A stretch of 24,657 nucleotides of DNA, from the IMG/VR virus record IMGVR_UViG_3300013094_000268, positions 1 through 24,657 of that record; one strand, given 5' to 3'. Each line of letters starts with the position of its first letter. The first letter of the stretch is position 1. This document shows positions 4,337-24,404 of this stretch, one piece after another. Below the pieces are notes generated by a model that did no database searches, had not been told where the DNA came from, and saw nothing but the letters and a program-made list of their open reading frames with translations. The translations under genes and the position numbers were made by a program. The DNA comes from a virus.

Positions 4337-4960
4337 CTAATCTCTAATGCGATCAGTTTGATAAATTACATCAAAGGGTTTTCCATTAATGGTTCCATAT
4401 TCTTCAAACTCAACGAGTTCTTTCTTTGTTATTACTAGGTATTTATCACCCAGTAATCTTTGAGCAGTTTCGATTTTTACAACCGAATCAAAGTTCATGT
4501 AACCTTTAACTTCAACAATGCGTTCATCTCTGCCAGCAATGAAGTCTGGGCGATAAGTCCCTGCGGGAGTCTCAATGTCATCTCCGTCATATCTTCTCCA
4601 TGCGATTCCGTATCTCATGCAGCAAGCTGCAAAACGGATTTCCCATGTTGAGTGGAATACAACGGCGGCATCATTAAGTTCCATAACGAACTTGTCCCTA
4701 ATGCTCTTTTGTTCCTTGTGAGAACATTTGTTAGAGCAGTATTTCATTGCTGATCGATAGGTTTCAGGTCTAGTAAAAGATTCACCACAGCCTACACAAA
4801 TAGCCGATTTAGTTCTCGGCACTTGTTTTAAACCCTTTCTCCGTCCTTCATCTGCACAGCGTTTTGAGCAGTACATCGTCTTACGTGAATAAGCGAGATA
4901 ATCTTTCTCGCATACCATGCAGATGAAGGGTTCGGAGTAGGGAGTAGTTCTGTGAGCCAT
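4337..4960 (-). CDS. Free-standing homing endonuclease, zinc fingers plus PD-(D/E)xK nuclease
   Basis: The product has 207 residues. Two zinc fingers open the protein: C14/C17/C31/C35 and C55/C58/C75/C79. A nuclease domain follows, with STWEIRFAACCMRYGIAWRR (E107), then TYRPDF (D139), then RIVEVKGY (E150, K152). This is the D...ExK active site of the PD-(D/E)xK fold with the 'S-x-WE-x-R' helix usual in phage homing or very-short-patch-repair-like nucleases. Homing endonucleases cut alleles that lack them and spread by repair. It sits alone between the major capsid gene and the next virion gene, a typical insertion place. The SD AGG lies inside a palindrome (4966-4981), so translation may be restrained. 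Confidence 0.8.
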   Translation of the reverse strand: MAHRTTPYSEPFICMVCEKDYLAYSRKTMYCSKRCADEGRRKGLKQVPRTKSAICVGCGESFTRPETYRSAMKYCSNKCSHKEQKSIRDKFVMELNDAAVVFHSTWEIRFAACCMRYGIAWRRYDGDDIETPAGTYRPDFIAGRDERIVEVKGYMNFDSVVKIETAQRLLGDKYLVITKKELVEFEEYGTINGKPFDVIYQTDRIRD

Positions 4961-6564: not shown

Positions 6565-7884
6565 TTAAAGTGTCATCAGAAAATCGTCAGACATGATGTC
6601 CTGGCGAGTCGCTGTTGAGGCCGTTGTCATACGACCCATTTCTGGCATACGGTTATTACCGCTTGCCACTTTCTGGCTCCGAGGTTGACGTGCCCCAGAC
6701 TCTTCGAGCATCTCTAAGCTAGCTTTGAAACCAGCAAGCTTCGCATCAGACATTTGCTCAAACTTTGCAATGTGCTTGGCACGGTCATCGTGTTGGACCA
6801 TGCCCAGCTTCTCAAGGCGCTCAACGATTTGAAGACTCTCAAAGATCTTCTCGCGAGCAGCCTGTGTTACAGCAGCGGCCTTTTGGTAAGGCACAAAGGC
6901 AGGATTAGTACCATCGTATGGGAATGGGTTGCGGTCGTGATCTACTTGTGGAGTAAGACCAGTCTCAGCACCATCGTTATAGAAGGGTACGTAACCAGCG
7001 TCCTCACCATTTACCTCTTCAGGTACAAGCACGTTCGTGTTGTGGTCAGGTTGCATAACACGGTCACGGTCGAAAACGCCAGCTTGGTCATCAAGGTCAC
7101 GGACATCGATTACTTGGAGCGTTTCCTGGTTACCGTTAGTAGCTTTCTTCTTCAGCTTCTTGCCAGTGTTGTCACACTTCTTGCATCCATCGCCATCGCA
7201 CTTCTTGCAAGTCTTAGAAGAAGCAGTCTTCTCATCTGACTCTTCATCGGCGTCGTCATCTGAATCAGCGGTAGCAACCTTCTTAATATCCTCGAGAAGG
7301 CTCTCAAGCTGCTTAAGGTCGGCAGAAGCCTGACGGAAATCACCATTGTTCGAGAGGTCATTCTCGATGTCTACGACGATGCTAGCAATCGTACCAACGA
7401 CTTGCTTTACATCACTGTTGGTGCTTGCAAAACGAAATACAGTCGAAGCATCATTGGATGCTGTGACTAAGTTAGTAAAATCAAAATCAACTTGATCGTT
7501 GATTGCATCACGGATCTCACGACTAGCCTTGTAAACATTGTACAGGCTCTCATCTAAGGGGTTGATGCTAGCATACATGGGTTGACCTTCTGAATAAACG
7601 GCGCTAGAACCAGGTCCACCAACAATTTCACCAGGAGCATTGGTGGGTGGGTCAGCAGCATCAAGATCACGTACATCGAGCAAACGAGTAGCAGGCTGGT
7701 TAGCTTCCCAATCAGCAATTTCTTCTGCTGGAGCAGGAGCCTGGCTAGAAAGGCCGTAAGGACCATCTAAGTTAAGGTTTGATGTCTGATCATAATTAAG
7801 ACCAGGTGTAGTTGGCTCAGGTAAACCACGCTCTTGATAAGCATTTTCTGCCTGCTTGATTAGCTCGTCATCGAAACGGCTCAT
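6565..7884 (-). CDS. Acidic prohead core / scaffold-like protein with a DnaJ-like zinc knuckle
   Basis: This 439-residue product starts MSRFDDELIKQAENAYQERG, with GAGGAG before the ATG. Its ATG overlaps the preceding stop as ATGA. It is acidic and mostly disordered or helical: residues ~115-205 look like helices (YNVYKASREIRDAINDQVDF; KQLESLLEDIKKV). A very acidic stretch (208-219) follows, and then CKKCDGDGCKKC (C226, C229, C234, C237), a CxxCxGxG-type zinc site. A helical C-terminal part (337-395) precedes a Met/Thr-rich tail. The hexapeptide DVRDLD occurs twice, at 70-75 and 260-265, flanking the zinc site. Position between protease and capsid genes suggests a scaffold or core protein; the zinc site is not usual for scaffolds. 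Role inferred. Confidence 0.6.
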   Translation of the reverse strand: MSRFDDELIKQAENAYQERGLPEPTTPGLNYDQTSNLNLDGPYGLSSQAPAPAEEIADWEANQPATRLLDVRDLDAADPPTNAPGEIVGGPGSSAVYSEGQPMYASINPLDESLYNVYKASREIRDAINDQVDFDFTNLVTASNDASTVFRFASTNSDVKQVVGTIASIVVDIENDLSNNGDFRQASADLKQLESLLEDIKKVATADSDDDADEESDEKTASSKTCKKCDGDGCKKCDNTGKKLKKKATNGNQETLQVIDVRDLDDQAGVFDRDRVMQPDHNTNVLVPEEVNGEDAGYVPFYNDGAETGLTPQVDHDRNPFPYDGTNPAFVPYQKAAAVTQAAREKIFESLQIVERLEKLGMVQHDDRAKHIAKFEQMSDAKLAGFKASLEMLEESGARQPRSQKVASGNNRMPEMGRMTTASTATRQDIMSDDFLMTL

Positions 7885-8579
7885 GTTAGCTCCTCATTAT
7901 TTTTGGCGTTTTCGTCGTTTTTATTCTGTGCATCAACTTCGGCAGTGCCTTTAAGCAGTTCCCACATTCTTGTGGTGCCATCCATTGCTGCATTCATTGA
8001 ATCGTCTTGCATCGCACCTGGATCAAATTGTTCCTTGGCACTCTTTTTAAGCTTTTTTTTAGTATCTTCGATCTTTGTTGCAGCTGGGCTTAAAAAGTTG
8101 CGTTGTACTTTTTTTAGCATCCTAGGATCTATGCCCAGGAACTTAGGTCTTTTAAATCCTAAGGCACCAGCAATTTCTTTATTACATTTAGGATTATCGC
8201 AAGAACCCGATAATTCACCCTTTTTCATAGAATCGTTGTTGAAAGTCATCTCTCCACAATCAGGACATTTGACTTTAGATCTAGAAATATCGGGTAATAC
8301 ATCGACAAAAGATAAGCTACGATAAGCTGCTTTAGCTCTAGGATTTTGCTCAGCAAGACTCTGCTGCTGTTCCTTCATCGTTTGTTGAATACCCATTGCA
8401 TTTTGCCATTCAGCGATTGCCTCTTGAACTCGTGGATCAATGTAGCTGCAGTCTGGGCAAATACCATCTCTATAAGCGTTGCTTTGGCACTGAGGGCAAT
8501 TACCTAAAATAGAGATAGGCACCCTAGCGACTTCTAGGGCGATCTTCTTTATCTCGTTAGATAATTTAAGGATTGGCAT
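7881..8579 (-). CDS. Double zinc-ribbon protein of the prohead module
   Basis: The product has 232 residues. The ATG at 8579 overlaps the protease stop as TAATG and is preferred over an in-frame ATG at 8606 inside the protease gene. It begins MPILKLSNEIKKIALEVARV. Ribbon 1 uses C28/C31/C41/C44 (CPQCQSNAYRDGICPDC). Ribbon 2 uses C105/C108 (CPDCGEMTF) with C127 and C132. A basic stretch (KKKLKKSAKEQFDPG, ~174-188) and a charged Asn/Glu-rich tail follow. It lies between protease and scaffold-like gene, with ATGA overlap to the latter. A core component or assembly cofactor is possible; a nucleic-acid-binding role cannot be excluded. Confidence 0.55.
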   Translation of the reverse strand: MPILKLSNEIKKIALEVARVPISILGNCPQCQSNAYRDGICPDCSYIDPRVQEAIAEWQNAMGIQQTMKEQQQSLAEQNPRAKAAYRSLSFVDVLPDISRSKVKCPDCGEMTFNNDSMKKGELSGSCDNPKCNKEIAGALGFKRPKFLGIDPRMLKKVQRNFLSPAATKIEDTKKKLKKSAKEQFDPGAMQDDSMNAAMDGTTRMWELLKGTAEVDAQNKNDENAKNNEELT

Positions 8580-9238
8580 TAATAACGTTTCGTGTGAAGT
8601 AACCAAGCTGATTCATCAGCGGGTTCGAATACAAAGCTGAGCTCGAAGAAGTTTGGCTTGATGCAACTTTCAAAAACAAGGCTCTCGATACGTTTGCCTT
8701 CTTTATAAACAGTTACGTTTCTACCCTTCATACGAGGGATGTGTGTGCAATATTCGGAAGGCTTGCTGGCATACTTTCCGCATGCCGAGCATTGAGTACC
8801 CTCTACATCAGCTCCCATGCTGACTGCGTTGAGCTGGCCTTCCATGATTGAGCTAGCTAGCTTAGGAAATGTTTGTGCATCAACTTCCATGAGGCAGTAA
8901 ACGCTGGCATCAATTATACCACTAGCTAATTTGCTTTCACGGTAAACAGCATCGAGGATTACACCACGAGCACGATCAGGGTCACTATTATTGTGCTCTA
9001 CGTAGATTGGACGACCAACAAAAGTCTTATAGCTCTTTTTAATTTGATCTACAGGCCAACCATCATAGTTAGCATTCACTCTAGAGGAGATAGCTCTAGA
9101 AACAGCGTAAACATAACCAGGTTCAGGTTTAAAATTGAAGTCATCAAAATTAACGTTATGAAGCTCAATGTTTTGAGAGTTGCCAGCGAGGGTCTCTCTT
9201 CCCATTAAGGTTACAGTAGGTGCGCCAAATTTAATCAT
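8579..9238 (-). CDS. Prohead maturation protease with inserted zinc site
   Basis: Residues are numbered from the alternative ATG at 9244 (221 residues). The ATG at 9238 is better spaced (8 nt) from the only AGG and gives 219. The protein resembles herpes-assemblin-like phage prohead proteases: YVYAVSRAISSRVNANYDGW, then GRPIYVEHNNSDPDRARG with a likely catalytic His84, then LNAVSMGADVEG with a likely catalytic Ser142. Right after the serine comes CSACGKYASKPSEYCTHIP (C152, C155, C166, H168), a zinc-binding insertion seen in proteases of some large phages. The enzyme would cleave scaffold/core and capsid N-terminal segments during head maturation. It lies between portal-side genes and the capsid gene, as expected. 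Confidence 0.8.
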   Translation of the reverse strand: MIKFGAPTVTLMGRETLAGNSQNIELHNVNFDDFNFKPEPGYVYAVSRAISSRVNANYDGWPVDQIKKSYKTFVGRPIYVEHNNSDPDRARGVILDAVYRESKLASGIIDASVYCLMEVDAQTFPKLASSIMEGQLNAVSMGADVEGTQCSACGKYASKPSEYCTHIPRMKGRNVTVYKEGKRIESLVFESCIKPNFFELSFVFEPADESAWLLHTKRY

Positions 9239-9260
9239 CTTCATAACCTATTTTGTCTTA

Positions 9261-10320: not shown

Positions 10321-13300
10321 TTATAAATCGTTTGCTGGGAAAGGTTCTTCTACAGTAGGATCAATTTGCTTTCGTGCAGGCTGGTCCATGCCGCCTTCAC
10401 CACTACTGTGTTCATTCAAGTCTGTTGGTTCTGTGATCATTGGATCATCGATCAATGATGCAAGATTTTGTTTGAATTGATCTTCATCAAACTTCTCATA
10501 GCTATCATCAACAATAATCTTCATACCAGAAGCGAGCTTCATACGCTTACGCTTCTTCTGTTCAAAAGGCACTGCAAACTTCATACGATCACCGTATTCA
10601 ACTCGGCCTGTGAACTCATCGAACTCATCGTCTTCATCCCAGCCGGACACAGATGCAGTCTTCTTCTTAGGACCATTCTTTGGACCCTTTTTAGAAGGCT
10701 TAGGCTGATTTTTGCGCTGCTCATAGCTTTCTTCTGGGCGTTGACGCTGTTGAGCTTCTTGATTGATGCTAGGGTACACTTGAGCACCAGCTGCGGCATC
10801 ACTATTGCCTGCGGTATTGCCAGTCATGTTAGGAGCACTTGGAGGCGTTACAAGGCCAGCCATAGCTCCTGGAGCAAGCTGTGCACCAAGCGATGGGTCT
10901 TCAAGCATCGCAAGGTAGGCCTGGTATTCCTGCACATATTCTGGTGGTATTGGAAGCTGTAACGTGTACAAGCGGTCGAACAGTTCCTTCTTAAATTGTT
11001 GCTCAGCGACGACTGTCTTAATCTTCTCTTCTTTTCGTGCTGAAACTTCATCGTCGAAGTCAATTGGTATATTGACAGCAAGAGTGCTAAGAGAGATTGG
11101 GAACCCAGCTGCGCTCAATTGCTGCAAGAAACCACGTTCTACGGTCTCATCACGTAGGTTCATACTACGGAATCTAACTTCGGGGATTGCTAGTTTGGGT
11201 CGTTCTTCAACATATTCAGCACCAGTCTCTTCATCAACCATGAGGACAGTTTCCATAACAGGAACCATCTGACCGCCCACGTTACGCATTTCATAGTGAC
11301 CTTGTCTTTCTGCGACTGGTTCCATACGGCTACGAATAAACTTCTCAATCTTATGCTGGTAGGTGCTAAGCATTTGAGTAATAAGTTCACGGTTGAGAGC
11401 ACCACTGGCGTAAGTGCCGCCTTGACCGCCCTGAATGAGGTCTGAACCAATGCCGAATACACCCATGACATTAGTCTGAACTCTGAGGAAATCCTGGTCT
11501 AGTCGTGGCATACTTTCACGACCAAAAGCGTTTTGGATCTGCAAACCGTGGTGGTAGGTCATCAAGCGGAAGTCAGAGTTGATAGCCATGGAGAGGTCAT
11601 CTCTCAGGCTTTGAAGTTCCATGGCGTCTGGGATCCATGGACCGTCTTGGTCTACGTCAGGAAGACCCAGAGTAGCCAGAATAAGAGGAGAATACAGACG
11701 GTCGGCAATAGCATCTTGCGCGGCGTTAAGGGACTCCTCAAGCATAAGCATACGAAAAGCACGAAGAAGGATAGGAGTACCATGCTCGCTCCACGGGTTG
11801 GTATTGTGCGTTACAAGGCCAGCAGTAATGTGGGTATGGTGCTCATCAATTCCAATGGCCATTGTTTCTTCATCAATACCCATTTCAATTTTTACAATTT
11901 GATCATATGGGAATTTAGATGGGCGTGTATTTCTAATAGGCGTAGTGTTAGGAACTTGCTTTCTTGAACAAAGCGGTTGCACATAATGAGATAGCAAAGA
12001 CTTAGCCTCTTGCTTGCCAACAATTAGACGGTGACCATAACCAGAATCCGGTGCATAGTCATATTTAGGCACGTCATAGATTCTTGATTCTACTCCGAGG
12101 AATGACAACAATGTTTGACAATCTTCAAGCAGTGAACGGTTCATACTAGTCCATACAACCATGCCATTTGAGTCAACATGACCATCAGTATCTAGATAAC
12201 CAGCAAGAAAAGCTCCCCAAACTTCAGGCCCACCATCCCAAATACAAGACGGGACTCTCTTTGTATAAGTAGTTTGCCCCTTGATACCAGCATCTACGAT
12301 TAATTTCTTGATTAAATTAGGATTTTTTGTTTGTTCACCCTGTGAAATAACGAATGATATCTCACGGTCACCGGCTTGCGATAGTTTGCAACTATATCCG
12401 GCAACGAATTCATTCATCCAATTTAGTATTTCTTTGTCTTCATTGTGGAACATAATCGTTTTATGGCCATAGCTACCATCACCAACCATTAAACCAAAGA
12501 ATCTTGCTTCATCGGTCGATACATTGCTAATCATCTCAGGATTATACGAATGGCCGACCAACAAATTTGTTCCGATAGAAAGATCGGCAGCTTCTACCCA
12601 GCCATTATCAGTAAGGAATGGGTGCTCCGAGTTAACACCAATCTTTCGACCTTGCTTAGTTGTGATCCAATAGATTGGTTCTGGTTCATTAATACCTTGG
12701 TGACTAACGGTACTGCGAACAATCTTATTCGTAGTCTCATCCCATGCGAGCACTTCATCGCCAACAGCAAGGTCTCTTGCCTGGACAGGACCAGTTGGGG
12801 TCATTATATCAGTAGAACCAACAACGCACTTAAATTTAATCTGCTTCATAATTACATCTGAAACAGGAATCTCTTTATCTTGTCGTGCCCAGGCTACAAC
12901 ATCTGGGTAGAGTTGCATAAGCATTGCATACTCTTGCGGAGGATCACGACGTTCGATAAGGCGCTTAATTTCTTCAGGGACCTTAACATGATATTGATAA
13001 GTTCTGAGAGCACGATTTTTAGCGACGATAACATCATTGGGGTTGATGATCTCATCTTCTTCCCAAGCACCAATACCATCATGCCAAGAACCCATAGCGA
13101 ATACTTCACCAACAGTCCAGTGCTCACGGCCAAGGTCAAAAAGAAATTCTTGGTAGTCTAAGCTATCAAAGAATAGTTCATTATAGAAATCAGCGATCCG
13201 CTTATCTGGGTGAACCAATTCGATATCTAGGAGAGGGAATCTAGTATAGATATCAATTAAACTAGGTACAAGGTGGTGAGTAGAATAGAGTAATCTAGCC

Positions 13301-14883
13301 CAGTCACGAATCTTACGAGTTTGTTCATCAGGGTCCTCCATGTTGAACCACCATGTGTTTCTCGTGGCAATACCAGAAACACAGTATGAGTGGTCTTCTG
13401 TAATGGTCAGACTATAAATAGTACCTTTGTAATCCGATTCGATTACTTCTTCAACTGGAATCCATACACCTTCCGCAACGTGTTCGATTGGGTATTTGCG
13501 TCCACGCTTGACAATAACATCATCATCGATCTCATCAAAAATGTGGATGTCCATCCAGTTAAGGAATGCACTATTTTCTGTTCGGCTGAGTACTATATTC
13601 TTGCCGTCAATCTTCTTTGAGAATGACTTAGTTGTTCTGTGATACACAGAAGGGAAGAAACCATTTCTGGCCATCATTTGAAGAATTTGATCACGCAAAT
13701 GGTTAGAAGAAGTAAAACAAGAAGAGATATCTGGCTGGTAGCAGCCGTCTCCATCGAAGTACCCACGAAGAAGGGCTTTCTGCTTCTCTTCTGGCAAAAA
13801 TTGTGCCCACTCTGGGAAATGCTTGTTATATGAACCCTTACCACAAAGAATTGGTAGAGCACGAGACAATGGAAGATTCGCTAATTCAACAATTACAGAA
13901 TTATCACCATATTTTGTATGATCACGAATATCTGCTACTTTGCCAGTGAGTTTTTCAAGGACATTTACTGTTCTATTTATTAAATCTGTTTCTTTTGTGG
14001 ACAAAGCAATGTGAATTGTCTTATTGTCCGGTCCACCAGTAGATCCTTCAGCAATATATAGACCAAGAAACCATAGGAAATCATCAGTTAATTCAATCTC
14101 TACTGGCAATGAATTAATTGGTCGTCCTGGTTTCCCACGAAGACGCTTTGGTGCTGCACCATACTTTTCGCTTAACTTGCGAGTGAAATAACCATTCTCG
14201 ATAACCAAATCAGAATGATCAATTATTTCTGTAAGATTAATGAATTCTTTATCTTCGATACGGCGGTCTACTGGGAAAAGAATTTTGTCGTTTGGCTTTA
14301 AATCCTGGACATGAATAAATTGTCCACCATCTTCACGAAGTGTCCAAATGGGGTGGTCAGCGGTAACGTTGATAGCAGTACGGTAACGAGGCTTCAGTTG
14401 ATAAACTTTACCCTCATACTCTTGGTTGCCAAGATCAAGTACACGACGATATCTACCCATGTGGGTAAGAGCTCGATCACCGTAGGTAACGTCTTCAATC
14501 TTTTTTGGACCATCTAGGAGAGTAATTTCTTCCCCCGGTAAAACGCAACGCTCACGCCAGTATTCAAATGGATCATGCAGCTTAGGAAGCGCCCATTGGG
14601 CATCTGATCCAGTCGCTGCAGCTAATCTTCTATTAGGAGTGTTAGCAACACCCTCTAGATTAAAACCTTGCTTTAAGTTGTTTAGACGTTGGCGTCCTTC
14701 TGGCGGACCACCCAAAGCTGTAGCCATTGGACCAATTTCATTAAGCATTGATCCACTGGTCTTAGCCCTGTCAAGCATGTCTCGTGCGGCAACACGTCCA
14801 GCGATAGGGTTCTTTGGTAGCGTGATACCAGCTGTCTTCATACGGTTTAATTCCGTTGAAGCACTCCAGTCTTTTGATGCCAT
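10321..14883 (-). CDS. Portal protein interrupted by two inteins
   Basis: The precursor has 1520 residues. Splicing out residues 113-509 and 686-1027 would leave a portal of about 781 residues, within the range for large phages. Extein parts read smoothly across both junctions: ...HDPFEYWRER|TWWFNMEDPD... and ...SDVIMKQIKFK|TNPWSEHGTPILLR... The NPWSEHGTP-LLRAFR segment and the later FGIGSDLIQGGQGGTYASG match portal proteins of large myovirus-like phages. The portal forms the dodecameric ring at the head vertex through which DNA is packaged. The C-terminal ~150 residues are disordered and strongly charged, with a Lys-rich patch (1397-1408) and an acidic patch (WDEDDEFDEF). Terminase is not visible upstream. 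The ATG at 14883 has only a weak SD (AGAAAGA). Confidence 0.8.
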   Translation of the reverse strand: MASKDWSASTELNRMKTAGITLPKNPIAGRVAARDMLDRAKTSGSMLNEIGPMATALGGPPEGRQRLNNLKQGFNLEGVANTPNRRLAAATGSDAQWALPKLHDPFEYWRERCVLPGEEITLLDGPKKIEDVTYGDRALTHMGRYRRVLDLGNQEYEGKVYQLKPRYRTAINVTADHPIWTLREDGGQFIHVQDLKPNDKILFPVDRRIEDKEFINLTEIIDHSDLVIENGYFTRKLSEKYGAAPKRLRGKPGRPINSLPVEIELTDDFLWFLGLYIAEGSTGGPDNKTIHIALSTKETDLINRTVNVLEKLTGKVADIRDHTKYGDNSVIVELANLPLSRALPILCGKGSYNKHFPEWAQFLPEEKQKALLRGYFDGDGCYQPDISSCFTSSNHLRDQILQMMARNGFFPSVYHRTTKSFSKKIDGKNIVLSRTENSAFLNWMDIHIFDEIDDDVIVKRGRKYPIEHVAEGVWIPVEEVIESDYKGTIYSLTITEDHSYCVSGIATRNTWWFNMEDPDEQTRKIRDWARLLYSTHHLVPSLIDIYTRFPLLDIELVHPDKRIADFYNELFFDSLDYQEFLFDLGREHWTVGEVFAMGSWHDGIGAWEEDEIINPNDVIVAKNRALRTYQYHVKVPEEIKRLIERRDPPQEYAMLMQLYPDVVAWARQDKEIPVSDVIMKQIKFKCVVGSTDIMTPTGPVQARDLAVGDEVLAWDETTNKIVRSTVSHQGINEPEPIYWITTKQGRKIGVNSEHPFLTDNGWVEAADLSIGTNLLVGHSYNPEMISNVSTDEARFFGLMVGDGSYGHKTIMFHNEDKEILNWMNEFVAGYSCKLSQAGDREISFVISQGEQTKNPNLIKKLIVDAGIKGQTTYTKRVPSCIWDGGPEVWGAFLAGYLDTDGHVDSNGMVVWTSMNRSLLEDCQTLLSFLGVESRIYDVPKYDYAPDSGYGHRLIVGKQEAKSLLSHYVQPLCSRKQVPNTTPIRNTRPSKFPYDQIVKIEMGIDEETMAIGIDEHHTHITAGLVTHNTNPWSEHGTPILLRAFRMLMLEESLNAAQDAIADRLYSPLILATLGLPDVDQDGPWIPDAMELQSLRDDLSMAINSDFRLMTYHHGLQIQNAFGRESMPRLDQDFLRVQTNVMGVFGIGSDLIQGGQGGTYASGALNRELITQMLSTYQHKIEKFIRSRMEPVAERQGHYEMRNVGGQMVPVMETVLMVDEETGAEYVEERPKLAIPEVRFRSMNLRDETVERGFLQQLSAAGFPISLSTLAVNIPIDFDDEVSARKEEKIKTVVAEQQFKKELFDRLYTLQLPIPPEYVQEYQAYLAMLEDPSLGAQLAPGAMAGLVTPPSAPNMTGNTAGNSDAAAGAQVYPSINQEAQQRQRPEESYEQRKNQPKPSKKGPKNGPKKKTASVSGWDEDDEFDEFTGRVEYGDRMKFAVPFEQKKRKRMKLASGMKIIVDDSYEKFDEDQFKQNLASLIDDPMITEPTDLNEHSSGEGGMDQPARKQIDPTVEEPFPANDL
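11803..12828 (-). mobile_element. Intein 2 of the portal, LAGLIDADG type (342 residues)
   Basis: Boundaries: Cys686 (TGC, 12828-12826) to Asn1027 (AAT, 11805-11803), followed by extein Thr1028. Block A: CVVGSTDIMTPTGPVQARDL. Block B: GVNSEHPFLT, with Asn in place of the usual Thr of T-x-x-H and the His kept. Endonuclease blocks: ARFFGLMVGDGSYG (108-121 of the intein) and GAFLAGYLDTDGHV (205-218), each with the acidic residue needed for cutting. Block F/G: GIDEHHTHITAGLVTHN with the canonical His-Asn end. All splicing and homing parts are present, so it is probably active. It interrupts the portal in a conserved segment, the usual choice of inteins. Confidence 0.9.
13357..14547 (-). mobile_element. 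Intein 1 of the portal, LAGLIDADG type (397 residues)
   Basis: Boundaries: Cys113 (TGC, 14547-14545) to Asn509 (AAC, 13359-13357), followed by extein Thr510. Block A: CVLPGEEITLLDGPKKIEDV. Block B: NVTADHPIWTL with canonical T-x-x-H (T62, H65 of the intein). Endonuclease blocks: DDFLWFLGLYIAEG (155-168) and LLRGYFDGDGCY (259-270). Block F: YSLTITEDHSYCVSG. The end is ATRN, so the penultimate residue is Arg instead of the usual His. Splicing can still work in some inteins without this His, but may be slower. The two inteins differ in sequence and length, so they look like separate insertions rather than a duplication. Confidence 0.9.
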
Positions 14884-17120: not shown

Positions 17121-17564
17121 TTAGTTGCTTGGAGGTATTGGAGCACCAGTACCATCGTCCGCGTATTCTTCTTTGGCGTCGGGTTGAACAGCTGGGTCAA
17201 CACCATCTATTTTGTTACCATTTGCAGTAAAAAAACGGTTTTTGTTAGCAAAAGCCCAGATATCTTCTTCTGAGCTAGCAGTCATTATTGGCTTTGGTGC
17301 AATACCATCTAAATTATTCGTTTTGTCACTCTTTAGATTGTTAGGCAATAAATTTTGCAGAGAGAAATCTTGATTATCTTGTTTTAATCCACCAGAATTC
17401 AACAGGCAATAGGCGTGTGAGAATAATGGCCTTTTCTTATCAACAGCTGTTCCATCAATAAAGACTGGTCCAAGCCCATCGGTGTTAGCAGGCATATCAC
17501 AGAATCTGCAAGGAACTCCAGCTGGAGCATCCTTTGGCTCTATATAACTTATCTTCTTATTCAT
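17121..17564 (-). CDS. Unknown protein with CxxC...HxxC zinc site
   Basis: The 147-residue product starts MNKKISYIEPKDAPAGVPCR. A likely zinc site is formed by C19/C22 (CRFC) and H50/C53 (HAYC) around a loop containing GLGPVFIDGTAVDKKRPLFS, a treble-clef-like spacing. The second half is disordered and acidic, ending in DDGTGAPIPPSN. Its ATG overlaps the stop of the large preceding gene as TAATG. It continues the run of zinc-motif proteins. Function unknown. Confidence 0.5.
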   Translation of the reverse strand: MNKKISYIEPKDAPAGVPCRFCDMPANTDGLGPVFIDGTAVDKKRPLFSHAYCLLNSGGLKQDNQDFSLQNLLPNNLKSDKTNNLDGIAPKPIMTASSEEDIWAFANKNRFFTANGNKIDGVDPAVQPDAKEEYADDGTGAPIPPSN

Positions 17565-19744
17565 TAATAATCCTCATCTTCGTCTACGCCCGAGGATTCT
17601 CCCAGGTTCTTTAGAGCACCGCGAATGCCACCTTGTTCAGTAAAACCTTCGATAGCAGTATTCATTTCTTTTTCACTCAGGTTCCTTCTGAGGTGCTTCC
17701 TCAAAGTGTCGTGCAAGTCTTTTTGACTTTCTTCAGATGACATAGAATCGACTTCGTCAGGCATATCTGGTATAGGCATGTCAATCTTAAACTTTGGAAG
17801 CTCCGTTTGGCTAAATTGCTTGCCACTTGGTTCTACTGGTTTTAATTCACGGTCAGTAGGCTTCTTAACGCTTGGGATAGAATCAGCACCAAGAACGTCG
17901 GGCAATAGGATTTCAGGATGACCAGGCTTTATATCGATTCCAAGTTTATCGAGCGCCTTATGAGCATCTTTACCCAAATATTTCATAGCTTTACGAGCAT
18001 AGTTACTGGGTGTAGTAATGGCACCTTCTCTAAACTCTTGCGCTGAAATACCCAAAGATCTTCTATAGATCGTCTTAGCTTTAATCTTTGAACTACCTTT
18101 ATAGCCATCGATTACTTTACTTTTGTCTATATTTTGCATAACATGCCCCGAAGTTGCTAACAGTGGTGCTGTAACATCGCTGATTCGAGCAACCTTATCG
18201 ATCGGAACGTTGCGCAAATAGATCCAATTGCCTCTATCCTCGGGTGACAGCTCGCCATGCATTGGCCTTAGATGATCGAACAAATTAGAAACATGCTGTT
18301 GGAATTTTGATCTCTTCAGATTATCTTCGGCGGAAGAATCACGATCGAATGATTGATTAATACCCTCACCAGCATCGAGGGCTATATTCCTATCTGGTCG
18401 ACCAAGTGTACGGGTACCGCGTTCTGACCGTATATTTTCTTGGTTATTGCCACGGACAAGAATATGGCACTTTGTACCTCTTCTATTAACGTGCGTGACC
18501 ACACCACACATCTGTTTGTCTTTATAACCACGTACAGACGATGAATCATCTCTTATCAGCTTTTGTTTAAAAATCGATTTAAACCAGTTTTCTGGTGTAT
18601 TATGCGATGGCATGATCCGAGATATTCCATGCTCATTCTTAGGAGTCCTAGGAACACCCGTGTATTGGTCTGCAGTTGATGTGTAATAAGTTTCAAAATT
18701 AGGTTGATGTTCACCTTCTCTTGTATCAGCATCTGGGTTAGACGTATCATGGTTTGTAAAAGTTATTGGTGTAAACTTTTGGATGGGGCTATCTTCCCTA
18801 CCACCCAACATATCCCATGCAGTAGCAATCGGTTTAAAGCCATCTACTACTGAGATCGGTGCAGTTACGCTAGCAACATCAGGATTAGACCCAGGTCTAC
18901 TGTGCGTCTGTTTTTCATCCAGCTTTTCTTCACCGCCAGAATTAATTGCTCGGGCACGGAACCTATCAATCATGCCTCTATTTTTGCAAGATTTACAATT
19001 ATCTTCTGGGTTTTCTTCTATATGCCCACATGGTTCAGCATAGTGTTTGCAGCTGCTATTGCATTGTGAATCAGTGTGACCACACAATGGGTGAGCGTTT
19101 AGAACACATCTTGTACCACAAGCTCTTTCTGTGCAATATTTCTCGTGGTAAGCTGCTGCTTTATTGTGATTTTTAGCATACTTCTTTAAATTAAAAACAT
19201 CTCTTAACGGATTTTTTAAAGAAGTACCAGTATTACCACAACTACAGAATTCTGGTGTTTGGTCACTTTCGGTGGGCACAATTGGCTTACCACCGTTTTT
19301 AGCACCATTACAATCGGTGCATGGATAAGCTTCTCTAGCTGTTCGATCGATCAAAGAGAGCACAGCTCTCTTCAAGTGCATATCACTTCTATTCTGACGT
19401 TGTCTGCTAGTTCTAGCGATAGATTCAGGATTCTTGTTTTCTAAAATCTTACGTTTTTTAGCTTCAAATTCCTCAGGATCAACCCGTGATACTTCGACTC
19501 GCTCTTCAGCAGATAAGTTTCGATCGGGTCTATAATTGATTATAGGGTCTCTTTGAAGAGGTTCTCTACTGACAGTACGCAGTTGCGAGAACTGTGGCCT
19601 ACCACCTGCCTCTTCTGAACTAGAAGTTTCTCGAGGCTTTGGTTCATGGACTTGCATGCCCATTGATTTTAATTCTTCAGTACTAAGACCCTCATACTCA
19701 CCGGCTGCTACAACGATCTTTGAATTAAATTTCTTCTTAGACAT
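17564..19744 (-). CDS. Large charged protein with a Cys/His cluster, unknown
   Basis: The ATG at 19744 gives 726 residues; it overlaps the preceding stop by 8 nt and has GAGG 9 nt upstream. The protein starts MSKKKFNSKIVVAAGEYEGL. Residues 142-253 carry about 15 Cys plus several His: PCTDCNGAKN, FCSCGNTGTS, YCTERACGTRCVLNAHPLCG, QCNSSCKHYAEPCGH and NCKSCKNRG, enough for three or four zinc centres. A middle Asp/Asn/Pro-rich region (290-400) looks disordered. A possible folded part follows (~475-620; LFDHLRPMHGELSPEDRGNW, YRRSLGISAQEFREG, KYLGKDAHKALDKLGIDI). The acidic, helical C-terminus ends DEDEDY. No enzyme motif is recognised. Confidence 0.55.
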   Translation of the reverse strand: MSKKKFNSKIVVAAGEYEGLSTEELKSMGMQVHEPKPRETSSSEEAGGRPQFSQLRTVSREPLQRDPIINYRPDRNLSAEERVEVSRVDPEEFEAKKRKILENKNPESIARTSRQRQNRSDMHLKRAVLSLIDRTAREAYPCTDCNGAKNGGKPIVPTESDQTPEFCSCGNTGTSLKNPLRDVFNLKKYAKNHNKAAAYHEKYCTERACGTRCVLNAHPLCGHTDSQCNSSCKHYAEPCGHIEENPEDNCKSCKNRGMIDRFRARAINSGGEEKLDEKQTHSRPGSNPDVASVTAPISVVDGFKPIATAWDMLGGREDSPIQKFTPITFTNHDTSNPDADTREGEHQPNFETYYTSTADQYTGVPRTPKNEHGISRIMPSHNTPENWFKSIFKQKLIRDDSSSVRGYKDKQMCGVVTHVNRRGTKCHILVRGNNQENIRSERGTRTLGRPDRNIALDAGEGINQSFDRDSSAEDNLKRSKFQQHVSNLFDHLRPMHGELSPEDRGNWIYLRNVPIDKVARISDVTAPLLATSGHVMQNIDKSKVIDGYKGSSKIKAKTIYRRSLGISAQEFREGAITTPSNYARKAMKYLGKDAHKALDKLGIDIKPGHPEILLPDVLGADSIPSVKKPTDRELKPVEPSGKQFSQTELPKFKIDMPIPDMPDEVDSMSSEESQKDLHDTLRKHLRRNLSEKEMNTAIEGFTEQGGIRGALKNLGESSGVDEDEDY

Positions 19745-21914
19745 TCTGAGTGGCCTCTTCGCTTTCTGTGGATGTTGCACCCTTAGGGCTCATTGAGGGG
19801 AAATTAGAGATTGATTCTTCGATAGATTTTCTTGAAGATTCTCCATGGCTTCTGCCAACTTCTGATAAAAGAGTCTGACTAAGTTTACGCCAGCGTGTCA
19901 TGTCTTCAACCTTATTGGGGTTGCTTGGGATAGCTGCTTTTGTTAAATGCTTGTGCATGGTATCAAGAAGATCATTATATTTACCAGTGGCAGAGTCGGA
20001 TAAGCTTCCTACAGCACTCTCTAGAGAACTTACAGGAGTTTTTATAGACTCTGGGAAGTCATCTTCGTTCACCCTAGTCTTACGCAACTTAAGCTTCAAT
20101 GGCTTACGTTCAGCAACGACATCAGGCCAACTCTTAATATCTTTAAGCTCTTCTTTCAAGTCAGCGAGGTCTGCGCTAGAAGCACAGTACTTTGCATTGG
20201 CACTAGACCAATTCTTTTTACTTTTCACATTCAATCTATCGATCACAGACTTAGGAACTCTTTTACCGTTTGAATAGACTCCAAGAAACATTCTTTGATC
20301 GATTGGTCGTTGTCCTTGACCGTACTCCTGTCGCGAACCAGTACCATATTGCTCAAATGGTGTTTTATTTGTTTCGGGGTCCTCAAGGTTAGGCATGTGA
20401 TGGATCTCATGTGGGCTAGACGCAAGATCACCGTCATAAGCATCGCTCATCGCTCGTAAATAATGAAAATCTGGGATATCTACATGCTCAGGGTGAATCA
20501 GTCTCATACCACTTGGTAAGGTGTCTGTATCTTCGAAACTTCCAATCCTACAGTTGCATGGTAGACCGTGCTCTGTCTGATGTTCGTCATCACCATGGCA
20601 ACGTGTACAATCTTTATCGCCATGGGCTTTCCAAGTGTCCACCCCAGTATTAGCAGGCATAGAACTTCTAAAAAGTGTAGCAAAACGTGGGTTACCCATG
20701 AAAGATTTTGCGAACTCATTGACTCTAGGCCTAGGCTTAATAGCTTTACCTTCGTTGAGAACATAACCTTCATTGCATTTAGGATTTGGGCACGTGTTAT
20801 CGGGCGTTAAAGGAATACTGCCTTTATCAGAATGGCAATTTGTACAAGAAAAAGCAGAAGTATCTTTACCAGAGCCAGAACAAGAAGAGCATTCTACTTG
20901 TGTTTCACCAGTTTTGTAGCTATTGGTCCTAGAACCCTTACCTTCGCAACTCTTGCAGGCTGGGGCATCTTCTTCATCGAAATACTTTTGCTTACCACCA
21001 CCGAGGCCAATCGTAAAAGGAACTCTTGTCTTTTTACCGTCAGCACCCACTTTGCTTCTAAGCGTTATTTTACCTTTTTCGCAATCACCGCATAATGTAC
21101 TATTATCTCGCTGGTTAGGCTCTTTTTTACCATTGAATCCACAGTAAATGCACTTAGATAATTTATTAGCATATTTTGTTAAAAAGTTCTGAGTTTGTTG
21201 ACCACGGCCTCTTTGTGCATCAGCCCAAGTTTCATAACGATTGAACTTTATACCTTTTGTACCAACACGCGTCATCGGGAGATAATCACCCTCAACGTCT
21301 TTAGAGTCAAACACTTTCGCGAAATCACTCTTTTCAGAACCATCTTCTTGCTTTACTGGTCGAAGCATATCAAGTAGTTTTGATTGGCTTGCTCTGAACT
21401 TGTTACCTGGTTGTCCACCAATTCTTTGTGGTGTAAACTCATGGATTTCTAAATGGTTATCTGGGTTACTAGTATTGAAAGAAGCAGCAGTCTCTCTATC
21501 GACATGCTTATCTCGTGTATTGCCACAAACACATAACCCATCGCCAACGGTATAAGGAATGTCTGATAATGAACCAATGATTTTATGCAAAGATTCTTTA
21601 CCACCATGAGTCTTAATCAGACTGGTAAAATCATCTGGCTCTAGGTCTTTACTCGTAGCGGTCTGACCAACATTTGTGCCTTTATTATCACGAATGTTAG
21701 ACTGATCAAGCAATCTAAGAACCGTTGACATAGATCTACTAATCGTTCTAGGTGTAGGTTTATTGATGATCGTTTCTGTCGGCGTATTACCCTTAGATGG
21801 CTTACGCAGAGCCTGAGCTTCTAGTTCTTTTTGTTCATTATCATGCTGTTGCATGTTAACAACGATTCTCTCACCAGCAGCGGTCTTTTTTTGTGCAAAA
21901 ATGAATTTAAACAT
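19737..21914 (-). CDS. Large protein with multiple DnaJ-like zinc motifs, unknown
   Basis: The 725-residue product starts MFKFIFAQKKTAAGERIVVN. Zinc-type pairs occur in series: C128/C130, CIYC (255/258), CGDC (275/278), CKSCEGKG (320-327), CSSCSGSG (342-349), CTNC (357/360), CPNPKC (375/380), CTRCHG (436/439) and CNC (453/455). The CxxCxGxG elements are the hallmark of the DnaJ cysteine-rich domain, but no J-domain HPD is present. Other segments include LLDMLRPVKQEDGSEKSDFA and PDFHYLRAMSDAYDGDLASS. The C-terminal 150 residues are charged and helical. The SD (TAGGTAG) is 10 nt from the ATG. It may be a chaperone-like assembly factor or virion internal protein; that is inference. Confidence 0.55.
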   Translation of the reverse strand: MFKFIFAQKKTAAGERIVVNMQQHDNEQKELEAQALRKPSKGNTPTETIINKPTPRTISRSMSTVLRLLDQSNIRDNKGTNVGQTATSKDLEPDDFTSLIKTHGGKESLHKIIGSLSDIPYTVGDGLCVCGNTRDKHVDRETAASFNTSNPDNHLEIHEFTPQRIGGQPGNKFRASQSKLLDMLRPVKQEDGSEKSDFAKVFDSKDVEGDYLPMTRVGTKGIKFNRYETWADAQRGRGQQTQNFLTKYANKLSKCIYCGFNGKKEPNQRDNSTLCGDCEKGKITLRSKVGADGKKTRVPFTIGLGGGKQKYFDEEDAPACKSCEGKGSRTNSYKTGETQVECSSCSGSGKDTSAFSCTNCHSDKGSIPLTPDNTCPNPKCNEGYVLNEGKAIKPRPRVNEFAKSFMGNPRFATLFRSSMPANTGVDTWKAHGDKDCTRCHGDDEHQTEHGLPCNCRIGSFEDTDTLPSGMRLIHPEHVDIPDFHYLRAMSDAYDGDLASSPHEIHHMPNLEDPETNKTPFEQYGTGSRQEYGQGQRPIDQRMFLGVYSNGKRVPKSVIDRLNVKSKKNWSSANAKYCASSADLADLKEELKDIKSWPDVVAERKPLKLKLRKTRVNEDDFPESIKTPVSSLESAVGSLSDSATGKYNDLLDTMHKHLTKAAIPSNPNKVEDMTRWRKLSQTLLSEVGRSHGESSRKSIEESISNFPSMSPKGATSTESEEATQNV

Positions 21915-21928
21915 AGTTTAGTATCTAC

Positions 21929-22609
21929 CTATTTATCCCAAAGTCTTGGTTTTGGTTTCTGAACAATATCTTCTTCTGGAACCGATGAGGGAGTAACAGC
22001 AACTTCTTGCTGCTCAGGAATTATATCTTTCTTAGGAGAAATTAATGGCTTTGGTGTAGGGACTTCATCTGGGACATCAATATCTGGTATTATATCATCG
22101 AAACCTATGATTGGGTCAGAACTCCAGTCATGCTCCGATGGATCAATGCTTAAACTCCTACTATTAAACTTTTCTTTAGTTTTTTGTTTAATAGAATTAT
22201 TATACCTTCTAAGAATCGATTCTTTTTCTATATCACCACGAGCACTGATTCGTCTCTGCATCTCTGGAGACTCGTCTTGGTTCAATGGCCTTAAAGAATT
22301 CATAACATTTTCCATAAAAACATGAGTTTTTCTTGTTGGATTAGCATGGTTATCACAGCAATGCACTACATCTGTTCCAGTACGTTGAAGCAAGATACGA
22401 CCTTTTGGCTTATCTCTTTTCAGGCTTTCTTCATAATCTGGGTCACCACGACGTTCGTTCCTTTGCGCTAAGAAATCAGGCGTCGTTCTATCCTGATCAT
22501 CACAGGGGCCCCAATCACCATAAAGTTTTTTAAACGTACGGCTAGGGAGCGTTTTCTTTAAGTCGTACAACCAACAATTAGCGTTTGGATCGTATTCAGC
22601 GTCCGACAT
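21929..22609 (-). CDS. Unknown charged protein, Pro-rich C-terminus
   Basis: The 226-residue product starts MSDAEYDPNANCWLYDLKKT. The ATG overlaps the preceding gene by 14 nt and has AAAGGGA about 6 nt upstream. The N-terminal ~125 residues look folded: RTFKKLYGDWGPCDDQDRTT, GRILLQRTGTDVVHCCDNHA, and VMNSLRPLNQDESPEMQRR. Scattered Cys/His (C12, C36, HCCDNH) could bind metal. The rest (~150-226) is disordered, Pro/Glu/Asp-rich (DIIPDIDVPDEVPTPKPLI). Segments of the LRP kind also occur in the two large zinc proteins next to it. Function unknown. Confidence 0.5.
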   Translation of the reverse strand: MSDAEYDPNANCWLYDLKKTLPSRTFKKLYGDWGPCDDQDRTTPDFLAQRNERRGDPDYEESLKRDKPKGRILLQRTGTDVVHCCDNHANPTRKTHVFMENVMNSLRPLNQDESPEMQRRISARGDIEKESILRRYNNSIKQKTKEKFNSRSLSIDPSEHDWSSDPIIGFDDIIPDIDVPDEVPTPKPLISPKKDIIPEQQEVAVTPSSVPEEDIVQKPKPRLWDK

Positions 22610-24053
22610 CAGTCATCCCTTTGCATGCGTACTGGTCTTCCATGAAATCGTTGAGTTTTTCTCTAGCTTCAGTTTTATCTGGCGTGCTTCTTCTGATCTC
22701 AGCGATGCCTTCTTTGTATTCATCACTTTTATTCACTTTAGCTATTTCATCATCTGGTAAGATTCCAGTGCCCTTGCAAAGTATGCAATCTTTTGGATGT
22801 TTCTTTGCACTAATCGATGGCTCTTCTACCTTGGGTACTTCTTCAGACTCTGAATCATCTAAATTTCTTTCCAACGATCGTGATTCAAATAGGTTAGAAA
22901 AAGCCGTGCTCGGTCTTGATGATTTTGAAGGTTTTTTAATCTTTTTTAAGCTCTTTAATTTATCCATGGCAGAAGAAACTGCTGGATTATTTTCATCATC
23001 AGGTAAAATTGGATCACTAAAATCTTCTGCGTTAGTATCATGTTTTACAGTGATCTCTTTTGGCTGAACACTGCCTTTGCCCTTTGGAGCCCCGCTTGTT
23101 TCGTCCTCGGTAGATTCATCATTTCTCTCAATGGAGTAAGCAACGTTTGGAGTGACTTCACCTTCATTGCCGCATGTTTTACAGACGTTTACTAGGTTGC
23201 CATCTTTGTCTTTGTTTGTCCACTCTTGACGTGATCTACCTTCGCATCCTTCAACATTCCCACATCCACGGCAATGAGGAGCTCTATTGCTCTTGTCTGA
23301 ACCACAGTCTTTAGTCTTGCATCCAGAGCAATGAGTGTCATTATAAACATGCTTTTCTAGCTTATTGATACTTGACATACCATCGCATGAAGGACAAACG
23401 ACTTTATCTTCGTCTATGCTCTCGTTGTCATCATCTGTGGCGCCTTCATCTTCATCTTCATGAAAACCATGTAGTTCATGGGTGGAATCTTCTGAAGTTT
23501 CTTCTGGGATTTTACAGCTATCGCATCCACGACCCTTACAATACTCGCAGCTTTCTGTTCTAAGCATTTGTTCTAAGCTATCATCATCGCCAAATCCGTC
23601 TGATTCTCTAGCATAATCGCCTATGAATCTATCATCAATACCTTGTTGATGCTCATAGTCATCTGGATCAAACTCTGAATTATAATCATGGAAATGGTCA
23701 TCATAGCTAGTAGAACTAATTCTTGGGTCTAAAGCCACTTTTATGTCTCTAGGCTCTTCTCTGAAATTTATTGGATACATTCCGGGGCTTGGCTGAAGTA
23801 CAGTAGCTTCCCCTTTTTCTATCTTTGTTTGTATCTCTTGCTTCTTATTTTCTCTTCGAAGCTTATCGTTCTTAATCTCACTTAATAAATACTGGTAAGC
23901 TTCGTCATCATTCTCGAAGAGCGGCATGGCACCGGGGTGCATTATTTTATTAGGATCTTGCGACCCAATCTCTGATGCAATAATTTTTCTATAGTTAAAG
24001 CGATCGCTATTAATAGCGTCAACAGCATTCTTAGAATTAAACTTATTATCCAT
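22596..24053 (-). CDS. Acidic zinc-motif protein, 485 residues, unknown
   Basis: It starts MDNKFNSKNAVDAINSDRFN, with an AGG 6 nt before the ATG. Residues 1-110 have a helical charged part (EAYQYLLSEIKNDKLRRENK) and a PGMYPINFREEPRDIKVALD segment. A strongly acidic, disordered stretch then alternates with cysteine motifs: CEYCKGRGCDSC (169-180, DnaJ-like), CPSC (220/223), HCSGCKTKDC (241-250), HCRGCGNVEGC (260-270), CKTC (291/294) and CILCKGTG (423-430). The final helix region (EAREKLNDFMEDQYACKG) runs into the next start. It is the first of the zinc-motif series in transcription order. I do not recognise a family. Confidence 0.55.
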   Translation of the reverse strand: MDNKFNSKNAVDAINSDRFNYRKIIASEIGSQDPNKIMHPGAMPLFENDDEAYQYLLSEIKNDKLRRENKKQEIQTKIEKGEATVLQPSPGMYPINFREEPRDIKVALDPRISSTSYDDHFHDYNSEFDPDDYEHQQGIDDRFIGDYARESDGFGDDDSLEQMLRTESCEYCKGRGCDSCKIPEETSEDSTHELHGFHEDEDEGATDDDNESIDEDKVVCPSCDGMSSINKLEKHVYNDTHCSGCKTKDCGSDKSNRAPHCRGCGNVEGCEGRSRQEWTNKDKDGNLVNVCKTCGNEGEVTPNVAYSIERNDESTEDETSGAPKGKGSVQPKEITVKHDTNAEDFSDPILPDDENNPAVSSAMDKLKSLKKIKKPSKSSRPSTAFSNLFESRSLERNLDDSESEEVPKVEEPSISAKKHPKDCILCKGTGILPDDEIAKVNKSDEYKEGIAEIRRSTPDKTEAREKLNDFMEDQYACKGMTDVGR

Positions 24054-24083: not shown

Positions 24084-24386
24084 CTACTTAACCTGCTTGA
24101 CGCAAGTTGTGCACTTGGCGTGACGTAGTTGCCATTCCTCATAGACAGCACGGACTAACTTAGCCTTAGAGTCACTGATATTAGCCATCTTACGATGAGC
24201 GGCCTTCTCAATATCTTCTTCAACCATACCCATACGGAGAGCAAGTTCACGATCACTGTGCGCTAGGAACAAAAAGTCACCAGTCTTAGTAAGTAGTTCA
24301 TGCTTGGCAATCACCAAATTCTTACCAGCAATCTTGGCATCAAAAGCTAAGTTTACTGTGTCATCATAGTCGAACATCGAAGTCAT
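24084..24386 (-). CDS. Small helical protein with C-terminal CxxC, 100 residues
   Basis: The ATG at 24386 is chosen because GAGGAG lies 7 nt upstream; the in-frame ATG at 24401 overlaps this SD. It starts MTSMFDYDDTVNLAFDAKIA. The sequence is helical and charged (AHSDRELALRMGMVEEDIEK, KLVRAVYEEWQLRHAKC) and ends CTTCVKQVK with a CxxC at 92/95. Function unknown. It is the first protein gene after the tRNA region. A 30-nt AT-rich gap separates it from the 485-residue gene. Confidence 0.5.
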   Translation of the reverse strand: MTSMFDYDDTVNLAFDAKIAGKNLVIAKHELLTKTGDFLFLAHSDRELALRMGMVEEDIEKAAHRKMANISDSKAKLVRAVYEEWQLRHAKCTTCVKQVK

Positions 24387-24404
24387 CGTGTTACTCCTCA
24401 TTAT

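Follow-up and report, generated by a model that had tools for sequence, protein, structure and literature searches.

The stretch of viral DNA considered here is IMG/VR record IMGVR_UViG_3300013094_000268, positions 1-24,657 (24.7 kb; this whole stretch is hereafter the window), in which every gene lies on the minus strand. Upstream of its portal gene stands a series of genes encoding proteins of 105, 485, 226, 725, 726 and 147 amino acids, several of which are rich in cysteine. These proteins feature two conserved elements, namely sets of cysteine and histidine residues of the zinc-binding type and a short N-terminal sequence, here called the tag, that recurs on unrelated proteins of the same lineage. 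The features of the locus are as follows.

24084-24401, minus strand: conserved opening domain of 105 amino acids (MTSMFDYDD...AKTAGK; C-terminus EEWQLRHAKCTTC), 53-75% identical in relatives
24117-24134, minus strand: C-terminal W-x-[LI]-R-H-A motif of the 105-residue protein, resembling the N-terminal tag
22596-24053, minus strand: predicted zinc protein of 485 amino acids (17 Cys, 7 CxxC, 2 CxxCxGxG)
24024-24041, minus strand: tag FNSKNA, residues 5-10 of the 485-residue protein, followed by V-D; YNSKNS or FNSRNA in orthologs; tagged family 10
21929-22609, minus strand: protein of 226 amino acids with a candidate CCCH zinc site (C12, C36, C85, H88), these being four of the five columns that are at least 95% conserved
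19737-21914, minus strand: predicted zinc protein of 725 amino acids (19 Cys, 6 CxxC, 2 CxxCxGxG)
21876-21911, minus strand: FxF..KKTAA element of the 725-residue protein; FxFNKxxA or FNSKxA in orthologs, with F6 invariant
17564-19744, minus strand: predicted zinc protein of 726 amino acids (738 if counted from an upstream GTG instead of the ATG), with a Cys/His-rich region at about residues 140-265
19703-19729, minus strand: tag FNSKIVVAA of the 726-residue protein; KKFNSKYA-x-D in orthologs
17121-17564, minus strand: predicted zinc protein of 147 amino acids, CxxC...HxxC (C19, C22, H50, C53), these being four of the five columns that are at least 95% conserved (n=27 sequences)
10321-14883, minus strand: portal protein with two inteins (phrog_2833, E=1.9e-148)

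The phage of the window belongs to a freshwater (lake) lineage related to the myoviruses Bxz1, Myrna, E3 and phage G. The major capsid protein shares 62-64% identity with gp79 of Rhodococcus phage E3 and gp99 of Mycobacterium phage Myrna, and the PHROG matches for portal, head maturation protease and major head protein agree with this kinship. Capsid protein, portal and protease are thus homologous and keep their order, as in head modules of the Ceeclamvirinae/E3 type. A portal-based scan of IMG/VR yielded 80 relatives, most of which share about 80-97% identity with the window in capsid and protease; the Cys-rich genes of most relatives show about 25-35% identity or lie beyond the reach of tblastn, and the gene order is the same. 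One near-identical record (G001) reaches 23.9 kb further upstream. Direct scans of IMG/VR with the 725- and 485-residue proteins returned the near-identical contig as sole match, and tblastn of the 725-residue protein against annotated phages gave none. In several relatives the portal is either intein-free (about 780-790 amino acids) or of a longer form of about 1170 amino acids. Additionally, the portal scan of bacterial genomes gave a single distant match, a contig (L161) from a metagenome-assembled genome of Gammaproteobacteria; the genes near its portal are laid out in the same way, with a gp87-like protein of 797 amino acids and an open reading frame (ORF) of 482 amino acids with 19 Cys.

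Zinc-type sites and their conservation

The preliminary description of this DNA had reported many paired cysteines in the 485-, 725-, 726- and 147-residue proteins, which is borne out by a shuffle test and by cysteine conservation in orthologs. Together the four proteins contain 16 CxxC pairs against 1.3 on average and at most 6 in 2000 shuffles, and four CxxCxGxG elements against a shuffled mean of 0.007. At least four such elements had been claimed, and all four that were quoted could be located, CEYCKGRGC and CILCKGTGI in the 485-residue protein and CKSCEGKG and CSSCSGSG in the 725-residue protein. The zinc-type set of the 226-residue protein had been overlooked. Proteins of the 147-residue type are also found as part of longer proteins in relatives.

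Orthologs taken from related IMG/VR contigs retain these cysteines to a great extent. Mean Cys conservation is 0.90 in the 485, 0.90 in the 725, 0.75 in the 726 and 1.00 in the 147 family, against only 0.1-0.3 for most other residues; in the 726 family it drops solely at two unpaired Cys. Cysteine makes up eight of the nine invariant columns of the 485 family (22% mean identity) and eight of 15 in the 725 family. In the 726 family, with 24% mean identity, the ten invariant columns comprise five Cys, one His and three residues of the N-terminal tag (F6, N7 and K9 of the tag; C167, C169, G173, H200, C204, C209 and C213). Conserved sets of Cys/His ligands are thus present by pattern as well as by conservation, and it is almost certain that the module proteins hold genuine zinc-type sites. 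They are best described as putative zinc-stabilised multi-ribbon proteins, in which strong purifying selection would act at the metal ligands and N-termini only.

The cysteines had been placed in a disordered background, a view that stands mainly for the N-termini and linkers, but the proteins are not simply disordered. In AlphaFold2 models, the mean predicted local distance difference test score (pLDDT) is 72.6 for the 725-residue protein, with 465 of 725 residues at pLDDT >=70; for the 726-residue protein it is 68.2, with a predicted template modelling score (pTM) of 0.62 and 405 of 726 residues at pLDDT >=70. Searches of Pfam and PHROGs with the window's zinc-module proteins gave no significant match.

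A short N-terminal tag on unrelated proteins

The zinc proteins open with a short tag of the form [FW]-N-x-[KR]-x-A, which reads KFNSKNA or FNSRNA at the starts of the 485 family. In the 725 family, the modal fraction is 0.59 in the first 13 residues against 0.36 in the remainder. Whole contigs of relatives carry the tag, mostly as M-N-W-N-x-R-Y-A, at the head of many unrelated proteins. Its tight form, N-[WF]-[NSK]-x-R-Y-A-x-[ED], opens about 40 unrelated and patchily present proteins of the lineage, as counted from the families into which blastp groups the sequences once the tag is cut away.

The position of the tag is highly biased. Among 795 proteins, 22 of 26 occurrences of [FW][NS]x[KR]YA fall within the first 30 residues, which represent about 11% of the sequence. 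A gapped-motif scan of N-termini, made free of any preset pattern, ranked W..RYA top in two contigs, with zero occurrences elsewhere in those proteomes. As a DNA pattern, MNWNxRYA occurs at 56 sites on 28 of 2.9 million IMG/VR contigs, up to four per stretch, and a residue-swapped control pattern has no match in IMG/VR. The 28 contigs include 15 already known as portal relatives, and every stretch tested from the remaining ones matches the lineage (blastn E<1e-20). The codons of the tag differ among its bearers (Arg as AGA, CGT, CGC or CGA); since synonymous codons vary, selection would act on the tag peptide. Moreover, E or D stands at +2 of the tag in 53% of cases against a background of 18% (p about 6e-7), and A, S or G at +1 in 40% against 20%. 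The tag is thus, like the signal of phage T4, a short N-terminal sequence common to otherwise unrelated proteins and independent of codon use, and it can be taken with high confidence as a real signal at the peptide level.

The bearers are of diverse kinds. Profile matches among them include a SET domain (4e-8), a cupin (1e-6), a ParB-like nuclease (1.4e-4), a DnaJ-type zinc protein (1.5e-5) and an RNase_T exonuclease (4.5e-5; phrog_192, 8e-18), and one tagged protein falls in phrog_2579, the family of Myrna gp78 (3.4e-12). By eye only, the 385-residue protein at L144:503-1657 (R-STS-ExxE) seems ADP-ribosyltransferase-like and the 310-residue one at L148:5050-5979 (HExxH) metallopeptidase-like; a search for further homologs of the former found none. 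In several tagged proteins the tag recurs internally, where two domains meet, and the second half of the 385-residue protein stands alone in another relative (L142) as a separate tagged ORF. The tag therefore appears to be modular.

Some further observations concern related proteins and N-termini. Myrna gp78 (L005) and phrog_2579 are labelled 'ParB C-terminal domain', and by reading alone the sequence looks more like an ADP-ribosyltransferase. A second recurrent start, MRK[VI]SRA..., mostly running into N-[FY]-[RH]-T-A-[SA], occurs in L089, L096, L122, L127, L132, L149 and L150; the remainders of these proteins differ, and their genes often adjoin tagged genes. In another relative (G005, L116-L122), five proteins share yet another N-terminal motif, R..YS.N.Y.GGA, and are perhaps tail or fibre proteins.

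Gene fusions and the corresponding locus of Myrna and E3

The genes of the module are joined in different ways in different relatives. The opening domain is fused to a 485-type Cys-rich protein in L051, L055, L059, L067 and L073, and the 725 and 726 types are fused in L047/L048 and L051. As the fusions come in differing combinations, they suggest that the products of the 105-485-226-725-726-147 genes act together. The EW-x-[LI]-RHA end of the opening domain falls, in fused orthologs, where the Cys-rich part joins on, and its E, W, R, H and A as well as the C are invariant in six sequences. One such fusion, at L067:121-2175, is a 684-residue protein with 46 Cys and 20 CxxC.

The opening domain also links the module to described phages. 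The N-terminal parts of Myrna gp87 and of E3 gp68 are homologous to it (hhalign P=90.4%, E=1.4e-6, 82 columns). Both are encoded at the same site, directly before the portal gene, and have a small number of ribbons, as does E3 gp70, which its GenBank record labels 'structural protein'. Common to both settings are the location just upstream of the portal, the homologous N-terminal domain, and a charged background of low complexity with CxxC and CxC ribbons. In Myrna and E3 (Ceeclamvirinae and related), however, the locus comprises one or two proteins, which have few ribbons and lack the N-terminal tag, whereas the window has about six separate genes, many more Cys and DnaJ-type spacing. The proposed tie of the zinc proteins to the head module is supported. 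The statement that such proteins are unknown from well-described phages needs qualification, since ribbons occur at this locus in Myrna gp87 and E3 gp70, which have been described though not studied; otherwise it stands.

A motif of head proteins resembling the tag core

A motif akin to the tag core, [KR][TVYI]A[ASG], is 5-7-fold enriched in head proteins of Myrna, E3, the window and phage G, with 15 copies against 2.3 expected in Myrna, 11 against 2.0 in E3, 10 against 1.6 in the window and 9 against 1.3 in phage G. It is not enriched in other genes of Myrna (2 against 2.8) or E3 (2 against 5.5). Homologs of the window's head module in the lineage contigs hold 79 copies against 12 expected; the four-phage comparison is the fairer one, because the lineage count takes homologs repeatedly. 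Leucine was dropped from the strict motif since the [KR]LA[GS] of the capsid protein falls in a stretch shared with phage G and may be a helix. The mature N-terminus of phage G gp27 (6wkk), a capsid relative of solved structure, was considered as a check on cleavage and is uninformative, gp27 having no N-terminal extension. A protein of 236 amino acids (MNYENIELEAKTAAADTRWFNG; G001:13367-14077, G003:7672-8385, G005:10349-11059) contains [KR][TYVIL]A[ASG] three to six times, a higher enrichment than in any other protein, and is perhaps a head core protein.

A possible capsid-targeting signal

The favoured explanation of these observations follows the example of phage T4, where the first 10 residues of IPIII are enough to direct a protein to the head and are cleaved off by gp21, and where the ADP-ribosyltransferase Alt, which is ejected, sheds a propeptide of 7 residues (PMC9026906). 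By analogy, the 105-485-226-725-726-147 genes may constitute a portal-proximal head module of a myovirus lineage related to Bxz1, E3 and phage G, with the large zinc proteins as resident core or cargo proteins of the head compartment. The tag would bring its bearers into the assembling prohead, the prohead protease would probably trim it at [KR]-x-A or A-x-[ED], and the cargo would be ejected with the DNA and act on the host. The zinc ribbons, more speculatively, may bind DNA or RNA or hold other cargo. The earlier suggestion that the zinc proteins are head-packed and ejected along with the DNA is indirectly supported by the gp87/gp68 homology, the record note on E3 gp70 and the likeness of the tag core to the head motif. 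Taken as a whole, this mechanism, with the tag as a capsid-targeting sequence analogous to that of T4 and the zinc proteins inside the head, is judged to stand at an even balance of probability. A more specific form, in which NW[NS]xRYA-x-[ED] is an import code of the lineage's own, unrelated to that of T4, that loads exchangeable host-directed enzymes together with the zinc proteins and is cut by the protease, is proposed tentatively and falls somewhat short of such a balance.

The likeness to T4 IPI-III, Alt and gp21 lies in a short N-terminal sequence common to proteins that are unrelated and either dispensable or patchy, in a prohead protease within the head module, and in a probable ADP-ribosyltransferase among the bearers, as read from motifs. 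The differences are that the sequence is another one, that the cargo families are far more numerous here, and that packaging and cleavage are observed in T4 but conjectural for the window. The ejection proteins of SPN3US and phiKZ offer a second comparison, one of features: in the part of the source consulted, many head-internal proteins have N-terminal propeptides, and cleavage at AXE or SXE ([A/S]-x-E) recalls the A-x-[ED] at the tag end (PMC5694885). Several of those propeptides, however, exceed 100 amino acids, and no zinc ribbons are reported there, as far as that part of the source goes (PMC5694885).

Several points weigh against head packing by means of the tag. The motif class was picked after viewing the window, E3 and Myrna, leaving phage G alone as a fresh case, and there the control genes are also mildly high (3 against 0.94). 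Proteins outside the module in the lineage contigs likewise hold 103 copies against 71 expected. The structural status of E3 gp70 is a GenBank label, not taken from its primary source. Pfam gives no ADP-ribosyltransferase or metallopeptidase match for L144:503-1657 and L148:5050-5979. The tags of the window itself are degenerate (FNSKNA, FNSKIVVAA, FAQKKTAA). Furthermore, the tag was not found in E3, Myrna and the related stretches examined, nor in the lineage contig G006; because of this absence, the tag would be a derived feature, and zinc proteins can exist without it.

If capsid targeting by the tag holds true, it would provide a second example beside that of T4, and one searchable by sequence. 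The anonymous small genes of abundant lake phages could then be read as likely injected effectors, several of them with enzyme domains that can be recognised, and sequence by itself would be enough to catalogue the packaged effectors. The zinc proteins would find their place in the head, and it would become clear why their metal ligands and first residues alone are kept. Moreover, with the candidate [KR][TVYI]A[ASG], the specificity of the protease in the Bxz1/E3/phage G group can be tested on phages that are culturable.

DnaJ resemblance and alternative explanations

The CxxCxGxG knuckles recall the Cys-rich domain of DnaJ/Hsp40 (PF00684), and weak profile matches occur in orthologs. The ortholog of the 485-residue protein in L050 matches PF00684 at E=8.9e-6, its 26.3 bits being below the curated cutoff of 32.7 bits, and three of 14 members of the 725 family match as well, reaching E=3.2e-5 and lying under the cutoff where shown; the window's own 725-residue protein has no PF00684 match. 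The best local Foldseek matches of its model are DnaJ Cys-rich domains, 2ctt (E 0.36) and 1exk (E 3.7); all such matches are local, with E>0.3, and a DnaJ fold was not found overall. Top Foldseek matches of the 726-residue model to polymerases were discarded as meaningless long alignments (E>0.2). The DnaJ zinc domain requires four CxxCxGxG repeats, and the 485- and 725-residue proteins have two each. The absence of a J-domain, claimed at the outset, is confirmed in that none of the six module proteins of the window contains the HPD motif and Pfam yields no DnaJ match. With no J-domain, scores below the curated cutoff and no significant overall fold, membership in DnaJ/Hsp40 is ruled out. Separately, E3 has a DnaJ-like protein, gp152 (L160 39850-40473), annotated in its replication region.

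The best placed of the alternatives, though itself unlikely, is that the zinc proteins are assembly factors outside the virion, scaffold- or chaperone-like, which handle head or tail subunits, with the tag as a docking motif for a phage or host partner. The DnaJ-type knuckles in orthologs, the local Foldseek matches and the position beside portal and scaffold genes would all suit such a role. However, the missing HPD motif and the lack of a significant fold match speak against it, and a tag on SET, ParB-like and exonuclease proteins would make no sense for chaperones of subunits. The chaperone-like character suggested earlier for these proteins finds no support beyond local knuckles of the DnaJ type.

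The next alternative, likewise unlikely and ranked after the assembly factors, is that the tag recruits proteins made after infection to an intracellular target such as RNA polymerase, the replication machinery or a compartment, the zinc proteins being its nucleic-acid-binding members. Zinc ribbons commonly bind nucleic acids, and nucleic-acid enzymes (exonuclease, ParB-like) are among the tagged families. Recruitment of this kind leaves unexplained, however, both the likeness of the tag core to a motif enriched in head proteins and the internal copies of the tag at domain junctions. It is highly improbable that local mosaic evolution alone, in which a recombining accessory region duplicates a gene start with no functional tag and the zinc proteins are unrelated neighbours, accounts for the data, for although tagged genes are patchy and often adjoin one another, tag codons vary freely while its residues do not, and the tag is kept across about 40 unrelated families, including the invariant F6, N7 and K9 in the divergent 726 family.

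Other features of the head module

Further cysteine-bearing genes lie on the other side of the portal gene.

8579-9244, minus strand: prohead protease with a CSAC..C..H site (phrog_18299, head maturation protease, E=3e-25)
7881-8579, minus strand: protein of 232 amino acids with 3 CxxC, located where E3 and Myrna have a single protease-scaffold fusion
6565-7884, minus strand: scaffold-like protein of 439 amino acids with CKKCDGDGCKKC

The zinc-type site that had been noted in the protease exists, but it is not specific to the phage of the window: E3 gp77 and Myrna gp97 share it, and it is thus a feature of the family. Right behind the capsid gene, at 4337-4960, the window encodes an HNH-type or resolvase-like endonuclease with two CxxC (phrog_1271, E=5e-19), which is possibly a homing endonuclease.

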